Assembly: GCF_000011385.1 (NCBI RefSeq) | Contig: NC_005125.1 | Coordinates: 1,736,001 to 1,800,000 of the forward strand | Length of the DNA stretch: 64,000 nt | Reading direction: 5' to 3' | Source of the DNA: Gloeobacter violaceus PCC 7421 | Lineage (GTDB): Bacteria > Cyanobacteriota > Cyanobacteriia > Gloeobacterales > Gloeobacteraceae | Shown here: positions 5,844-13,866 of the stretch, piece after piece | How positions within the stretch are numbered: the first letter of the stretch is position 1 | Layout of the letters: each line of letters starts with the position of its first letter | Program-made: the position numbers and the translations under genes | Notes under the pieces: generated by a model | What the model saw: only the letters and a program-made list of their open reading frames with translations | Told to the model about the DNA's origin: nothing | The model's database searches: none

Positions 5844-6257
5844 TCAATTTAGCCAAACGACCGCCGCTGCAAGATAAACGGCTCCCAGAAAATGGATAGC
5901 CCGCTTGTCGTACCGCGTCGCTATCGCCCGATATTGCTTCAGCCTTGCAAAGAAGTTCTCTATCAAGTGCCGCGCTTTGTACAAGTCCTTGTCATACTCC
6001 CGCGCCACCTTGCGGTTGCTCTTAGACGGGATTACCGCTGTCTTTCCCGCACACTCAAGCACTTCTATCACCCGCTCATCCGCGTCGTAGCCCTTCTCCC
6101 CAATCACCGTCCCAGAGGCCAGACCCACCAAAAGCACATCCGCCCCCTCTAGGTCACTCGCCTGACCTGCCGTCAGATGAAAGCTCAACGGGTTGCCCAA
6201 AGCATCGACCGTGGCATGGATCTTCGTACTTAGTCCCCCGCGACTGCGACCGATTGC
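5844..6257 (-). CDS. IS5-family transposase, C-terminal ORF (orfB)
   Basis: This second frame encodes GRSRGGLSTKIHATVDALGN followed by LSFHLTAGQASDLEGADVLL. The second catalytic Asp is in VIGEKGYDADE and the catalytic Glu in ARHLIENFFARLKQYRAIAT. It has no convincing start of its own (the first ATG, at 6200, is inside conserved sequence), so it would be expressed only by frameshifting from orfA. The open frame begins right after an in-frame TAA at 6258-6260. Confidence 0.75.
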   Translation of the reverse strand, partial: AIGRSRGGLSTKIHATVDALGNPLSFHLTAGQASDLEGADVLLVGLASGTVIGEKGYDADERVIEVLECAGKTAVIPSKSNRKVAREYDKDLYKARHLIENFFARLKQYRAIATRYDKRAIHFLGAVYLAAAVVWLN

Positions 6258-6606
6258 TTAGAGTCACGCTCCCCCCCTTTGCCCCAGCACTGTGTTGGTG
6301 GGCGCGCACAATCGTCGAGTCAATCATCGCGTATTCATTGTCCGCGTCTTGGGCCAGATGCTCGAAGACCCTTTGCCAGACACCCGATTTGGACCAACGG
6401 CTGAAGCGGGTGTGCACGACGCGAAAATCGCCGAAGCGGGCGGGCAGGTCTCGCCAGGGAATGCCTGCTCTGTAGCGGAACAGGACGGCTTCGATGAACA
6501 AGCGATTGTCTTTAGCGGTGACGCCGACGGTCCCTTCGCGTCCTGGCAGAAGGTCTTTGATGCGTTCCCATTGGTCGTCTCGCAGGGCATAGCGTCTGGT
6601 TGTCAT
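6154..6606 (-). CDS. IS5-family transposase, N-terminal ORF (orfA)
   Basis: Opens with RYALRDDQWERIKDLLPGR and FRYRAGIPWRDLPARFGDF, the typical IS5/IS427 N-terminal DNA-binding region. The first catalytic Asp is in AMIDSTIVRAH. After AKGGS the frame leaves the family sequence; the expected continuation IGRSRGGLSTKIHATVDALG lies in another frame. The shift falls near 6257-6260, where a TAA stop in the second frame sits next to the point homology resumes. It may be programmed frameshifting, as in some IS427-like elements, or a single-base insertion that kills the gene. Confidence 0.8.
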   Translation of the reverse strand: MTTRRYALRDDQWERIKDLLPGREGTVGVTAKDNRLFIEAVLFRYRAGIPWRDLPARFGDFRVVHTRFSRWSKSGVWQRVFEHLAQDADNEYAMIDSTIVRAHQHSAGAKGGSVTLSNRSQSRGTKYEDPCHGRCFGQPVELSSDGRSGE

Positions 6607-7962: not shown

Positions 7963-10900
7963 ATGTCTCCAGTCGGTATTCGCTCCCCCCAAACCGGGCG
8001 TCGTTCGCTTGCCAAGCAGGGCAAGTTGTGGATGCTTTTGGTGGGGATAAACGATTACCAGGACCCGACGTTTGCCGGATTGCGCTACTGCGTGGCCGAT
8101 TGCCAGGGCATTCACGCCGCCCTGCTCGACGCGACTCCCAACTTCAGCGGCCGTGAGTGCTTTGTCTTTCAAGACCGGGGGGTGAGCGCTCCGCCGGCGG
8201 CCGGTGTCCTCGCCGCCCTCGAGCAGATTGCCGAGCGGGCGCAACCGGAGGACACGCTGCTGTTTTATTTTTGCGGCCACGGGGTGATCGACCCGGCCAC
8301 CCGGCAGGCGGTGCTGTGCCTGGCCGACACCCGCGCCGAGGAACCCGCCGAGACGGGATTGGAGTTGCAGCGGTTGCTCGCCCGGCTCGGCCGCTGCAGC
8401 GCCCAGCAGCAACTGGTCTGGATCGACGCCTGCCACAGCGGCGGCATGAGCATCGGGGATCTGGCCGCCGGGGGCGATCCCGGCGGTCCGATGGTGGCGG
8501 TGCTGCGCGAGCGGGCCGCCAGAAGCCAGGGCTTCTACGCGATTCTTTCGTGCGACCGCTTCCAGCGCTCCTGGGAATTCAGCGAACTGGGGCACGGTTT
8601 GTTTACTTACTTTTTGATGCGCGGCCTGCGGGGAGAGGCCGCCAACTACAAAGGCGAAATCGAAGTCGACCATCTCTACCGCTATGTCTGCCAGCAGGCG
8701 CGACTGTACATCGACAACCGCAACCGGCAACTCCGGCTTCTGAACCGCCAGAAGCAGCGCGACGGAGAAACGGATTTTTTTCCGGAGTACCCGCCGCAAA
8801 CCCCCAAGCGCATCGTCGAAGGTGTAGGCACCCAGGTGATTGGCCTCAAGGTGCCCCAGGAAGAGGCCCGTCCCCTCAGGCGGGCCCTGGTTGTCGATGG
8901 GTTTGCAGGCGAGCGGGCCGCCTTTGCCCTCGGCCCGCTCCTGCAGGGATCCGGCGGCTTCGAGGTCGCCTACTGGCCCCAACCGGGCCGCCCCTGGAGC
9001 GAAGTGCGCGAGGCGATCAAAACCTGCCTCACCCCCCAGGGGAGCGCCCAGGAGCACGAGACGGTGCTCATCTATTTGCGCGCGCCCATCGAACGCACCG
9101 CCGAGGGCGAGACGCTCTGCCTGGGGGGCACGGTGCGCCTCAGTCCTTTCTGGCTGCGCCGCGAGCTGCAGTACAGCGGCGCAGCCCAGCAGATTGTGGT
9201 CCTCGACTGCCCCGGGGGTGGCCCCAGCCTCGCCGATTGGACCGACTGCCTGCTGGTCGGTTCTGAGCGCAGCCAGTGCCTGGTGGCCGCCGCCTCGCCG
9301 CAGAGCGATCCCGAGCGCTTCTTGCGGGTGCTGCTCGCCACGATCGAGACTGCCGATTCCCAGACGGGCCTGAGTGCGGCAAGCTGGATCGACCGATTGC
9401 AAAACGGCCTTACCCAGGCGCGGGTGGGGGTGCACGTCGGTCTCACCGGCGAGACGGGGATCATCGAAATTTTGCCCGCCGCCCGCCAGAATTTCGCTTC
9501 CCTTGCCGCCGCGGACCTCAAGCTGTGTCCTTACATGGGCCTCAGAGCGTTTGCAGAGGAGGACGCGCCCTACTACTTTGGCCGCGCGGTCCTCGCGCGC
9601 GACTTGCTGTCCCGTCTGGAGCGCCAGGTGTTTGTGGCGGTGGTGGGGGCGAGCGGCAGCGGCAAATCGTCGCTGGTCCAGGCGGGTCTGCTCGCCCAGT
9701 TGCGTACCGGCCGCCACATCCCGGGCTCGCAGCACTGGTGGAGTGGCAGCTTCCGTCCGGGAGCGCAGCCGATCGCCGCCCTCAGCCGCCGCCTCGCCGA
9801 GGGACACGGCTCAGGCGAGCGCCTGGATGCGGGACAACAGATCGAAGGGTTGTTGCACCTGGGTGCTCAGGGATTGTTGCAGTGGCTGGCCGCTCGCCAG
9901 GAGCCGGTGGTGCTGCTGGTGATCGACCAGTTCGAGGAGCTGTTTACCCTCGCCTCACCCCAGGAGCGCCGCGACTTTCTGGCGGTACTGCTCGGGGCGC
10001 TGGCTGGGGCGGCGGGGCGCTTGAAGCTGGTCGTCACCCTGCGCGCCGATTTTATCGGTCCTTGTTTGGAGGAGAGCGAGCTTGCCCCGCTGTTGCAGCA
10101 GGGCAGCTTTCTGGTGCCGCCGGTGCTGGTGAGTGCCGATTACCGCCAGATCATCTGCAAGCCGGCCCAGCAGGTGAATTTGCAGGTGGAGCCCGAACTG
10201 GTGGAGGCGCTGCTCGAGGAATTAAGCGGCTCGGCGGGGGGGCTGCCTTTGCTCGAATTTGCCCTGGAGCAACTCTGGCAGGTGCGCTCGGAGGGCCGCC
10301 TGACGTTGCAGGCTTACCGCCAGGAGGTGGGAGGGTTGCAGGGGGCGCTCGAGGCACGCGCCGAGCGGGTCTATGCAGATCTCACGACCGAGGAGCGCGA
10401 GTGCGCGCAGTGGATTTTTTTGTCGCTGACCCAGTTGGGCGAAGGCACCGAGGACACCCGCCGCCGGGTGCACAAGTCGGAACTGGTGGTCGAGCGCTAT
10501 TCACAAGATCTGGTGGAGCGCACGCTGCAGGCGCTCACGGCGGCGAAGCTGGTGGTGGTCGACCTCGAAGAGGGACAACCGGCGGGCACCCGCAGCACGT
10601 TCGGCACGGACATCGCCACGGCGGCGGCGCAACTGCGCCGCGAGGTGACGGTCGAGGTGGCCCACGAGGTGCTCATCCGTCACTGGTCGACTTTGCGCTG
10701 GTGGCTCGAAGAAAACCGCGCCCGATTGCGGGTGCTGCGCCAGATCGAACAGGCCGCTTTTCTGTGGAACCAAAAGCAGCGCCAGAAGGACTTTTTGCTC
10801 CAGGGGGTGCGCCTGTCGGAGGCGGAGGAGCTGATTGGCAAATTCGCCGACCAACTCACGGCAACTGCCCAGCAGTTCGTGGTCGCCTGCCTCGCGGAGC

Positions 10901-13155
10901 GTGGCGCCCAACGCGCGCAGGAGCGCCGCCGCCTGCGCGTTGCCCAGATAGCCGCCGTGGCGATGGCGATCCTGGCCGCCTTTGCCGCCGTGGCCGGACT
11001 ATTTGCCTACAAACAGGTCGAGGAGGTGCAGCACAGCCGCATCGACACACTGATTTCAGAATCAAAATTGTTGTTTGCCGACCACAGACAACTGGACGCA
11101 CTGATCAGTAGTGTGCGTGCAGCGCAGCTGGCACGTCAGTTTTTCTCGGGAGACAAACAACTCAACGAACAGACCGACAGAACGCTGCAAAAAGTGATCT
11201 TTAATATTGAGGAAGCCAATCGCCTAGAGGGATACATCGGTACTCCGTTAAGTTGTGACTTCAGCCCGGACGGAAAATTCATCCTCTGCGGAGACTCGCA
11301 AGGAAATATCTATCTTCAAAATCGAAGTGGTCAGACTATTAAATCATGGAAAGGGCATGAATCTGTCATTTACAAAGTTGACTTTAGTCCCGACAGTCTA
11401 CAGTTTGCAACTGCAGGTGAGGATAAGATTATTCGGCTATGGAGCGTGAATGGCGAATTGCTCAAGACACTGAGAGGCCATACCGAGCGAGTGCACAGTA
11501 TACGCTACAGCTCAAGTGGCAGACTCCTTGCCTCGATGAGTTCAAACTCAATAAAGCTTTGGGATAAAACCGGTAAATTTATACGATCAATCAACCGCAA
11601 CATTGGCGAAGCCATTGCCTTTGGATGGAGCCCGGATGAAGAGCTGCTCGCCATTCCGATAATAGCAGGAAATTCCGTTGAAATTACAAGTCTTAGCGGA
11701 CAATTGCTCAGAGTTCTTAAGGGCCATACACAGCCGGTCAATGGCGCCAATTTCAGTCCTGACGGCAATCAAATAGCCTCTTTTAGTTCAGACAAGACTG
11801 TACGGCTTTGGAATGCAAAGAGCGGCAAATTTCAGCATGCTTACTCCGGTCATACAGATGCGATTTGGCAAGTCGAATTCAGCCCCGATAGCTCAATATT
11901 CGCATCAGCCGGTGAAGACAGGACAGTGCGCTTATGGAGCAAGGACGGCCACAGTTTAAAAATTTTGTCAGGTCATACAGACAGAGTCATGGATGTGCGC
12001 TTCAGCCCAGAAGGCACCCATCTCCTCTCAGCAAGCTTTGATAAATCAATTCGCTTATGGCAAGTCAATAATCTCTATAGATTATCTTTTAAAGGTAATG
12101 GCTCCGAGGTGCTGTCTATGCGCTTCAGTCCGGTTAATAATCGCGTTCTAGCTGCCGCCGCCAACAAAGATATCTACCTTTGGAGCCATGATGGAAAGTT
12201 GATAGCCAAACTCATCGGGCATGAAGATCTGGTTCAGAATTTTGACATACGCCCCGATGGAAAGCAGATTGTCTCAGTAAGCTCCGACCGCACCATTCGT
12301 CTTTGGAGTAGCCAAGGAAAGCTGCTTAAAATTTTTCCCAGGCAAACCAACTGGCCTTTCTTTATTCGTTATATCTCCAGTGATATTATTGCTTCGGCAG
12401 GCCATGATAATCAGGTACATTTATGGAGCCTGGATGGCTCTTTGCTGCAAACTTTTAAAGGACACACCGATTCGACGACAGGTGCCCTGCTCCTGCAGGA
12501 CAAGATGGCTAGCTTCAGCTGGGATGGTACTATTCGGCTGTGGCAACTGAATGGCAAACTGATAAAAGTTTTGACAGGACACAAAGGCCAAATTTATAGC
12601 TTTGACTTTCAGCCTGCCGATAATATACTGGCTTCCGCCGATTCAGAAGGTGAAATTCGACTCTGGCGCGGCGATGGCAGTCTGCTTGCTGTACTTTCAG
12701 GGCATCGGGGCTCTATTTACAATCTAAAGTTCAGCCCGGATGGCCGGATACTAGCCTCCGGGAGCATGGATGGCACGGTGCGTTTGTGGACAGCTAGGGG
12801 AAAGTTATTGGCTGTATTGGCACACCATTCCGATTCGATCCGGGATGTTCGCTTCAGCCCGAACGGCAAATACCTCGCAACGGCAAGTGAAGATGGTACT
12901 GTGCGCATTTGGAACCTGAAGGGTGACTTGTTATCAACCCTCGATGTTGGTAACAGTGTGACAGCCCTTGCTTTTAGCCCTGACGGCCACACTCTGGCTT
13001 CCGGGAGTGCTGACGGCACCCTCGAGCTCTGGAAGCAATGGCGATACAGACCGCATGATGTGCTTGAGTCTGGCTGTCAATGGTTGCAGAACTACACCAG
13101 CCTTGCCACGGATGAGAAGGCTGGAGAAGTTGCCCGTGCCTGTAGAAAAAGGTAA
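7963..13155 (+). CDS. Caspase / pseudo-caspase / STAND NTPase / WD40 propeller protein
   Basis: A 1,730-residue multidomain protein. Residues ~20-260 are a caspase-like C14 peptidase with His106 in FYFCGHGV and Cys157 in WIDACHSGG. Residues ~300-510 repeat the same secondary elements in degenerate form: TVLIYLRAPIERT replaces the His motif and VVLDCPGGG the Cys motif. Residues ~530-990 are an nSTAND-type NTPase (Walker A GASGSGKSS at 562-570, Walker B VVLLVIDQFEELF near 648). A membrane helix spans ~993-1014, followed by ~15 WD40 repeats with TVRLW-type ends. This layout is used in bacterial death or defence sensors and regulators; that role is inferred. From about 11040 codon use turns AT-rich, so the propeller half may have a separate origin. 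Confidence 0.9.
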   Translation: MSPVGIRSPQTGRRSLAKQGKLWMLLVGINDYQDPTFAGLRYCVADCQGIHAALLDATPNFSGRECFVFQDRGVSAPPAAGVLAALEQIAERAQPEDTLLFYFCGHGVIDPATRQAVLCLADTRAEEPAETGLELQRLLARLGRCSAQQQLVWIDACHSGGMSIGDLAAGGDPGGPMVAVLRERAARSQGFYAILSCDRFQRSWEFSELGHGLFTYFLMRGLRGEAANYKGEIEVDHLYRYVCQQARLYIDNRNRQLRLLNRQKQRDGETDFFPEYPPQTPKRIVEGVGTQVIGLKVPQEEARPLRRALVVDGFAGERAAFALGPLLQGSGGFEVAYWPQPGRPWSEVREAIKTCLTPQGSAQEHETVLIYLRAPIERTAEGETLCLGGTVRLSPFWLRRELQYSGAAQQIVVLDCPGGGPSLADWTDCLLVGSERSQCLVAAASPQSDPERFLRVLLATIETADSQTGLSAASWIDRLQNGLTQARVGVHVGLTGETGIIEILPAARQNFASLAAADLKLCPYMGLRAFAEEDAPYYFGRAVLARDLLSRLERQVFVAVVGASGSGKSSLVQAGLLAQLRTGRHIPGSQHWWSGSFRPGAQPIAALSRRLAEGHGSGERLDAGQQIEGLLHLGAQGLLQWLAARQEPVVLLVIDQFEELFTLASPQERRDFLAVLLGALAGAAGRLKLVVTLRADFIGPCLEESELAPLLQQGSFLVPPVLVSADYRQIICKPAQQVNLQVEPELVEALLEELSGSAGGLPLLEFALEQLWQVRSEGRLTLQAYRQEVGGLQGALEARAERVYADLTTEERECAQWIFLSLTQLGEGTEDTRRRVHKSELVVERYSQDLVERTLQALTAAKLVVVDLEEGQPAGTRSTFGTDIATAAAQLRREVTVEVAHEVLIRHWSTLRWWLEENRARLRVLRQIEQAAFLWNQKQRQKDFLLQGVRLSEAEELIGKFADQLTATAQQFVVACLAERGAQRAQERRRLRVAQIAAVAMAILAAFAAVAGLFAYKQVEEVQHSRIDTLISESKLLFADHRQLDALISSVRAAQLARQFFSGDKQLNEQTDRTLQKVIFNIEEANRLEGYIGTPLSCDFSPDGKFILCGDSQGNIYLQNRSGQTIKSWKGHESVIYKVDFSPDSLQFATAGEDKIIRLWSVNGELLKTLRGHTERVHSIRYSSSGRLLASMSSNSIKLWDKTGKFIRSINRNIGEAIAFGWSPDEELLAIPIIAGNSVEITSLSGQLLRVLKGHTQPVNGANFSPDGNQIASFSSDKTVRLWNAKSGKFQHAYSGHTDAIWQVEFSPDSSIFASAGEDRTVRLWSKDGHSLKILSGHTDRVMDVRFSPEGTHLLSASFDKSIRLWQVNNLYRLSFKGNGSEVLSMRFSPVNNRVLAAAANKDIYLWSHDGKLIAKLIGHEDLVQNFDIRPDGKQIVSVSSDRTIRLWSSQGKLLKIFPRQTNWPFFIRYISSDIIASAGHDNQVHLWSLDGSLLQTFKGHTDSTTGALLLQDKMASFSWDGTIRLWQLNGKLIKVLTGHKGQIYSFDFQPADNILASADSEGEIRLWRGDGSLLAVLSGHRGSIYNLKFSPDGRILASGSMDGTVRLWTARGKLLAVLAHHSDSIRDVRFSPNGKYLATASEDGTVRIWNLKGDLLSTLDVGNSVTALAFSPDGHTLASGSADGTLELWKQWRYRPHDVLESGCQWLQNYTSLATDEKAGEVARACRKR

Positions 13156-13260: not shown

Positions 13261-13866
13261 CTAGGACGGAATAGTCGGCCACCGACCGTCGTCCGTTAGC
13301 CTGTTCATATTCGCCAGTAAACTGTCGGTGGTACTGGCGAGTATCCTCTCAAAATTTTCCGAATCGCTCAGACTTGGCTGCGTAGTGAATCTGGCCATCA
13401 GCCCTTCAGGAACAGTACCGGCCAAAAAATACTGGCCTGCCGGATCGTGGGCATAAACATCCGTATTCCCGCTGACGCTGCTCAAGGCGTAATCGTAGCT
13501 TTGCCCGTCGGCTTCAAGATAGACCTGCTCCTGTTGAGGAATGCATCTAGTATCAAAGCTTAAATGTCCCCTCCGATCTGCCGTTTCGAAGGACTTAGCG
13601 ACAAGCTTTCCAGCGTTCAACCGCAGCATAATGGCTGGGCCATCATCAGCAATAGTTACTTCAGTATCCGAATCTAATCTCACCATGGTGATGAGTAATT
13701 GAGAACTGTTCTCCACTTCCTGAAGCTCGACTAAAGAGGATCGTGTAAGTAGAATATCGTTCAATTCGAGCACCTGCTCAACACCTTCTTCACAGAATGT
13801 TTCTTGATCTGCTTTTATGATTATAGGAAGCTCTGGACCGGCAATTATATGGGTAACTCTCCACAT
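13261..13866 (-). CDS. Hypothetical protein with FecR-like pattern
   Basis: A 201-residue protein without catalytic motifs. The middle region (LELNDILLTRSSLVELQEVE, then VRLDSDTEVTIADD and MLRLNAGKLVA) has the beta-rich rhythm of FecR-type domains, but lacks enough signature residues for a firm call. No signal peptide or membrane segment is evident. Base composition is clearly more AT-rich than most of the window and resembles the WD40 half of the neighbouring gene, suggesting shared foreign origin. It converges on that gene with ~105 nt between them. Confidence 0.55.
   Translation of the reverse strand: MWRVTHIIAGPELPIIIKADQETFCEEGVEQVLELNDILLTRSSLVELQEVENSSQLLITMVRLDSDTEVTIADDGPAIMLRLNAGKLVAKSFETADRRGHLSFDTRCIPQQEQVYLEADGQSYDYALSSVSGNTDVYAHDPAGQYFLAGTVPEGLMARFTTQPSLSDSENFERILASTTDSLLANMNRLTDDGRWPTIPS

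Follow-up and report, generated by a model that had tools for sequence, protein, structure and literature searches.

The window analysed here is a 64,000-nucleotide stretch of the Gloeobacter violaceus PCC 7421 contig NC_005125.1 (positions 1,736,001 to 1,800,000), and all positions given below without a contig name are positions in this window. A single 1730-residue open reading frame runs on the forward strand from 7963 to 13155. It has no internal stop, and three paralogues in the same genome are 54, 48 and 47% identical to it over residues 1–1100, so the reading frame is a real gene, one of four copies in all. From its N terminus, the product consists of a caspase domain, a predicted pseudo-caspase domain, an nSTAND1 NTPase, a predicted membrane helix and a long run of WD40 repeats. 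A 201-residue reading frame at 13261–13866 is convergent with the caspase gene and has no Pfam or NCBIfam match; at 6154–6606, a 150-residue reading frame matches positions 2–115 of a 258-position IS5-family transposase model and may be a fragment.

The first domain (residues ~20–295; 8020–8847, forward strand, as are all features of the gene) matches Peptidase_C14 (Pfam PF00656) over residues 24–244 with 44.5 bits against a cut-off of 21.4 (E = 1.9e-11). In a structural alignment of the two-domain model described below, with Z scores of 19–21 to caspases over model residues ~8–295, the caspase fold extends to about residue 295. The catalytic His106 (codon at 8278–8280) and Cys157 (codon at 8431–8433) are invariant, being present in 117/117 homologues that cover both sites. 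From the profile match and the conserved dyad, domain 1 is an orthocaspase of the Peptidase_C14 family with its dyad intact and a predicted cysteine protease, which would be expected to cut after basic residues. A first-pass annotation, made from the sequence of the window, had already called it an active-looking caspase. Against the EACC1-type caspase model NF047832 it scores 126.5 bits, below the curated cut-off of 140. The invariant segment TPKRIVEG (residues 280–287) was considered as a self-cleavage site and dropped because its modelled strands line up with the final part of the domain 1 caspase fold.

Downstream of the two caspase-like domains, residues 523–942 (9529–10788) match nSTAND1 (Pfam PF20703) with 402.6 bits, above the cut-off (E = 3.3e-120), and carry a conserved Walker A motif, GASGSGKS, at residues 562–569, which together identify a STAND NTPase. 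It is followed by a single predicted transmembrane helix with an arginine-rich N-terminal flank (residues ~993–1016; 10939–11010; hydropathy 2.5), and the hydrophobic segment is conserved in 55/58 homologues. The mean net charge of the flanks is +4.1 before the segment and +0.5 after it, with the bias present in 56/58 homologues. By the positive-inside rule, this bias would put the caspases and the NTPase on the cytoplasmic side of the membrane and the propeller on the other. A WD40 propeller that is folded on the non-cytoplasmic side would be out of the ordinary, which counts against the proposed topology. The repeats themselves span residues ~1090–1690 (11230–13032; Pfam WD40 E = 7e-120) and number 15 when read from their ~41-residue period, compared with 12 separate stretches in Pfam and 14 in the literature. 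The NTPase, membrane helix and some 15 repeats of the first-pass annotation were all recovered, but for fifteen repeats a pair of propellers would be more probable than the single one that it proposed.

Fold and active site of the second domain

Domain 2 (residues ~301–510; 8863–9492) is not recognized by the usual sequence libraries. Residues 280–520 have no significant Pfam match, residues ~300–510 have none in NCBIfam, and searching PDB sequences with a domain-2 profile gave no significant match. An AlphaFold (AF2) model of domain 2 alone, built with 80 sequences, has a pLDDT of 84.3 and a pTM of 0.82. With this model, the best Foldseek matches are MALT1, a metacaspase and caspases, from E = 7.8e-6, and VIA-align gives Z scores of 17.7 to MALT1 and 15.9 to the pseudo-caspase c-FLIPL, the top alignment (Z up to 17.7) covering 183 residues at 3.9 Å. 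The top matches in both searches are almost all caspases, paracaspases and metacaspases.

The profiles point the same way. When a domain-2 profile built from 17 Gloeobacterales sequences was searched in 386 cyanobacterial genomes, its weak matches were the N-terminal domains of other large reading frames, and all of those checked (10/10) were Peptidase_C14 caspases. HHalign connects domain 2 to caspases that directly precede nSTAND1 with a probability of 99.1% (E = 8.5e-19, 173 columns) and to domain 1 with 94.1% (E = 1.2e-7), while the reversed domain-2 sequence, used as a control, reached at most 0.4%. Because the predicted structure and this controlled profile link to active caspases agree, domain 2 is predicted to adopt the caspase (caspase-hemoglobinase) fold, as had been proposed for about residues 300–510, and the structure and profile tests rule out the alternative that it is an unrelated linker.

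We compared the residues at the two catalytic sites in the two domains. At the first site, domain 2 has R373-A374-P375-I376 where domain 1 has C104-G105-H106-G107, so that Ala374-Pro375 (9082–9087) stand in place of the caspase Gly-His. At the second, it has D415-C416-P417 (9205–9213) where domain 1 has D155-A156-C157, and the catalytic Cys of the caspase Asp-x-Cys is replaced. Among 121 distinct domain-2 sequences, position 375 is Arg in 72, Lys in 11, Gln in 10 and His in 9, with other residues in the rest; position 417 is Pro in 95/121 and Cys in 0/121. D415 and Y371 are both present in 121/121. Five of the sequences have His at the first site together with a Cys one residue before the second, and a shifted His/Cys pair is conceivable in those five only. 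Since the dyad is absent from every one of the 121 sequences, domain 2 as an intact second protease is ruled out, and the loss of the site that had been read from this one protein is shared by the family.

The loss of the dyad is accompanied by constraint on the rest of the domain. For four orthologue pairs, dN/dS is 0.21–0.37 in domain 2, and between close orthologues it is 0.11–0.37 in domain 1, which indicates that domain 2 is under purifying selection. Mean pairwise identity is 46% for domain 2 versus 63% for domain 1.

Distribution, origin and neighbourhood of the pair

A scan of the collection found 155 confirmed loci of the caspase/pseudo-caspase pair elsewhere, of which 79 were kept; by their record titles these are all cyanobacterial except one MAG labelled Gracilibacteria. 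In the 386 cyanobacterial genomes, 46/49 strong domain-1 matches carry domain 2. The three exceptions (L184, L185 and L186) have coiled-coil or helical tails where the pseudo-caspase would be, and the sequence read shows no STAND domain. Domain 2 was never seen without domain 1 in the survey of homologues, these genomes included. A Walker A motif lies downstream of domain 2 in 92/120 homologues and is absent in 28/120, and the persistence of the pair in the latter ties domain 2 to the caspase and not to STAND. Within the cyanobacteria, the pair is a module of long standing.

Where inspected, the STAND-less relatives end in a helical tail that has no Pfam or NCBIfam name. Several of them (L064, L089, L104, L132, L047 and others) are 730–860 residues long, with the pair but no nSTAND1 or WD40 region and with helical repeats that carry a GPIA motif, and the genes of many of these short relatives adjoin Tll0287-HAMP and phosphonate-binding-protein genes. 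Five other loci (L077, L093, L096, L102 and L130) each contain two tandem-caspase STAND genes at a short distance from each other.

In a phylogenetic tree, all domain-1 sequences fall into one clade and all domain-2 sequences into another (100/100 for both), which is consistent with a single origin of the pair. Domain 2 groups with ordinary caspases that precede nSTAND1, with weak support (91/32), and the AU test does not reject a topology that unites domains 1 and 2 in a single clade (p = 0.27). A simple recent tandem duplication of domain 1 is disfavoured by the profile comparison (E = 1.2e-7 to domain 1 versus 8.5e-19 to ordinary caspases) and not rejected by the AU test. The first-pass description of domain 2 as a second copy of the same fold therefore holds for the fold, and it is not clear that the domain is a copy of domain 1. 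We lean to the unproven history in which an ancestral caspase-nSTAND1-WD40 protein would have acquired a further caspase at its N terminus and the original one would have lost its dyad.

By profile search, a gene for a sigma-70 family member is found in 34 and a DUF1822 gene in 30 of the 79 homologous loci; one sigma-70 member matches TIGR02937 with E = 3.7e-33, and the DUF1822 neighbour matches PF08852 with E = 4e-127. The genome has three sigma factor-DUF1822 pairs, and two of them are near tandem-caspase paralogues, those at G000:C1:3862814-3871000 (L197) and 766377-774830 (L196). One pair directly precedes a paralogue and shares its strand; another is ~1.1 kb from a second paralogue and convergent with it. 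The third pair, at genome positions 224118–226439, has no tandem caspase nearby. In a congener (L216), the DUF1822 gene ends 3 bp before the caspase reading frame opens, so that there the sigma-DUF1822 pair and the caspase apparently share one operon. The pair was found at 0/16 loci of ordinary caspase-nSTAND1-type genes, and the difference in sigma-factor linkage between tandem and ordinary loci (34/79 versus 0/16) gives a Fisher p of 4e-4, which is optimistic because the loci are related. The window gene itself has no sigma factor or DUF1822 neighbour, and most homologues are likewise not beside a sigma factor.

A sigma-DUF1822 context has been described for EACC2-caspase genes by Kaur and colleagues (PMC8195603), so the link between a caspase and this gene pair is as such already known; the available part of that paper makes no mention of it beside the tandem caspase class. 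The first-pass annotation had placed the protein among death and defence sensors. No defence-island or phage context was seen near the window gene, and PADLOC gave generic caspase and repeat matches only. The recurrent partner is instead the sigma factor with DUF1822, and this points to transcription as an output no less than to death.

Possible roles of the pseudo-caspase

We compared the protein with systems in which its parts have been described. The proteins and their caspase-STAND-WD40 layout are already known from published surveys (PMC2853523, PMC3501461, PMC8283722), and the four WD40 'metacaspases' that PMC2853523 lists for G. violaceus PCC 7421 match the four paralogues. They correspond to cbMC-beta, the caspase-NACHT/nSTAND1-WD40 metacaspases or orthocaspases (PMC2853523, PMC3501461), in combining an active caspase and a STAND NTPase with WD40 repeats in a single chain. 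Those surveys list one caspase domain per protein, and the passages searched mention no pseudo-caspase; nor did we find mention of a second caspase domain in these proteins in the accessible text of other published surveys, so the fused pseudo-caspase domain appears to be what is new here. Gloeobacter is said in the same literature to have true orthocaspases only (PMC2853523, PMC3501461, PMC8283722, PMC6426788). The YS-type pseudo-orthocaspases share with domain 2 a cyanobacterial caspase fold with the His/Cys dyad lost, but as described in PMC6426788 they are separate proteins with Tyr/Ser at the two sites and are absent from Gloeobacter. Domain 2 does not belong to that type: it has Pro/Pro, the family has mostly Arg/Pro, and it is fused to a live caspase and present in Gloeobacter. 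The EACC1/EACC2 systems (PMC8195603) also have a caspase with a variable sensory C terminus, and EACC2 has ECF sigma factor and DUF1822 neighbours. The Gloeobacter protein differs from them in lacking the N-terminal EACC domain (the caspase begins at about residue 20, leaving no place for the alpha+beta domain of EACC2) and in that its partner domain is a pseudo-caspase that follows the caspase.

Two further systems pair a dead caspase with a live one. Csx29 (TPR-CHAT, of type III-E CRISPR) and separase have both in one chain, and in Csx29 the pseudo-caspase CHAT1 contacts the sensor beside the active CHAT2 (PMC10028731); like the sigma-linked loci, the Csx29 system involves a sigma factor. 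The order there is pseudo then active (for Csx29, according to that paper) whereas here it is active then pseudo, the sensor of Csx29 is an RNA-guided complex and not a STAND-WD40 membrane protein, and no sequence relationship is shown. In c-FLIPL/caspase-8 a pseudo-caspase of similar fold (Z 15.9) is likewise associated with an active caspase, but these are separate animal proteins, and there is no evidence that the pairing shares descent.

The overall explanation that we prefer, and to which we give about an even chance, is that the protein is a membrane-anchored signalling protease in which the pseudo-caspase holds the live caspase and relays the STAND signal to it. A signal at the propeller would switch the STAND NTPase; the pseudo-caspase, lying between the NTPase and the live caspase and packed on the latter, would keep that caspase inactive and then pass the change on, thereby making the His106/Cys157 site competent. 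In the sigma-DUF1822 branches, and this is the least certain step, cleavage of a partner might free that sigma factor. A model of both domains (522 residues) has a pTM of 0.82, and this suggests that domains 1 and 2 have a defined packing, with the interdomain contact resting on the pTM. In a structure search with the two-domain model, single caspases aligned on domain 1 filled the matches, and no chain among those matches spanned both domains. The relay role would follow the precedent of Csx29, a functional analogy in which the domain order is reversed. The first-pass suggestion that the pseudo-caspase regulates the active one gains support, in that domain 2 was found only beside a live domain, outlasts the STAND module, shows purifying selection and has a predicted contact with its partner; the dimerization alternative is weighed below. 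A fuller analogy with Csx29, in which a WD40 sensor outside the cytoplasm and the STAND switch would work by way of the fused pseudo-caspase so that the caspase cleaves DUF1822 or another partner and frees a dedicated sigma factor, is in our estimate rather doubtful.

Rather unlikely, in our view, is a role of domain 2 chiefly as a permanent partner in a dimer, in which, through the caspase dimer surface and as in c-FLIP/caspase-8, it would keep domain 1 constitutively folded or licensed with no relay. The inseparability of the pair, which outlasts the loss of STAND, the presence of c-FLIPL among the structural matches and the pTM of the pair all fit such a role, but a relay fits better with the place of domain 2 beside nSTAND1, which most homologues share, and orthocaspases are generally regarded as monomeric. 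The same adjacency (domain 2 directly precedes nSTAND1 in 92/120 homologues) would suit an assembly adaptor that makes homotypic contacts between protomers in an apoptosome-like STAND ring and does not act directly on domain 1, and oligomerization is established for STAND proteins as a class. We consider this unlikely, with domain 2 kept in the 28/120 homologues that have no Walker A motif and never found without domain 1.

Two other readings seem to us improbable. In one, domain 2 would act as a decoy or bait that draws foreign proteases or caspase inhibitors, a function that has been proposed for inactivated effector domains of prokaryotic conflict systems. Catalytically dead caspases are common in related systems of this kind (PMC7159879), and the lower conservation of domain 2 relative to domain 1 would fit. 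The dN/dS of domain 2 is well below 1, however, many of its residues are near-invariant, and the surroundings of the window gene gave no sign of a defence island. Slightly less probable still, domain 2 might be a decaying relic of the caspase of an ancestral caspase-nSTAND1-WD40 protein, left as a mere spacer once another caspase had been joined to its N-terminal side. Its closest profile match, an ordinary caspase preceding nSTAND1, is what such a remnant would give, but a decaying domain would be hard to reconcile with purifying selection, retention where the STAND domain is gone and a core conserved across more than 120 sequences, down to the invariant D415 and Y371.

If domain 2 is the pseudo-caspase that it is predicted to be, the count of cyanobacterial pseudo-caspases and their inferred late origin need qualification, because a dead domain missed by the sequence libraries is present in Gloeobacterales, the earliest-branching order, and in many later lineages. 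The linkage to a sigma factor and DUF1822 gives a concrete place to look for the output. The conserved pair, whose two active sites are under opposing selection, would provide a testable system for a dead protease domain that controls a live one in bacteria.
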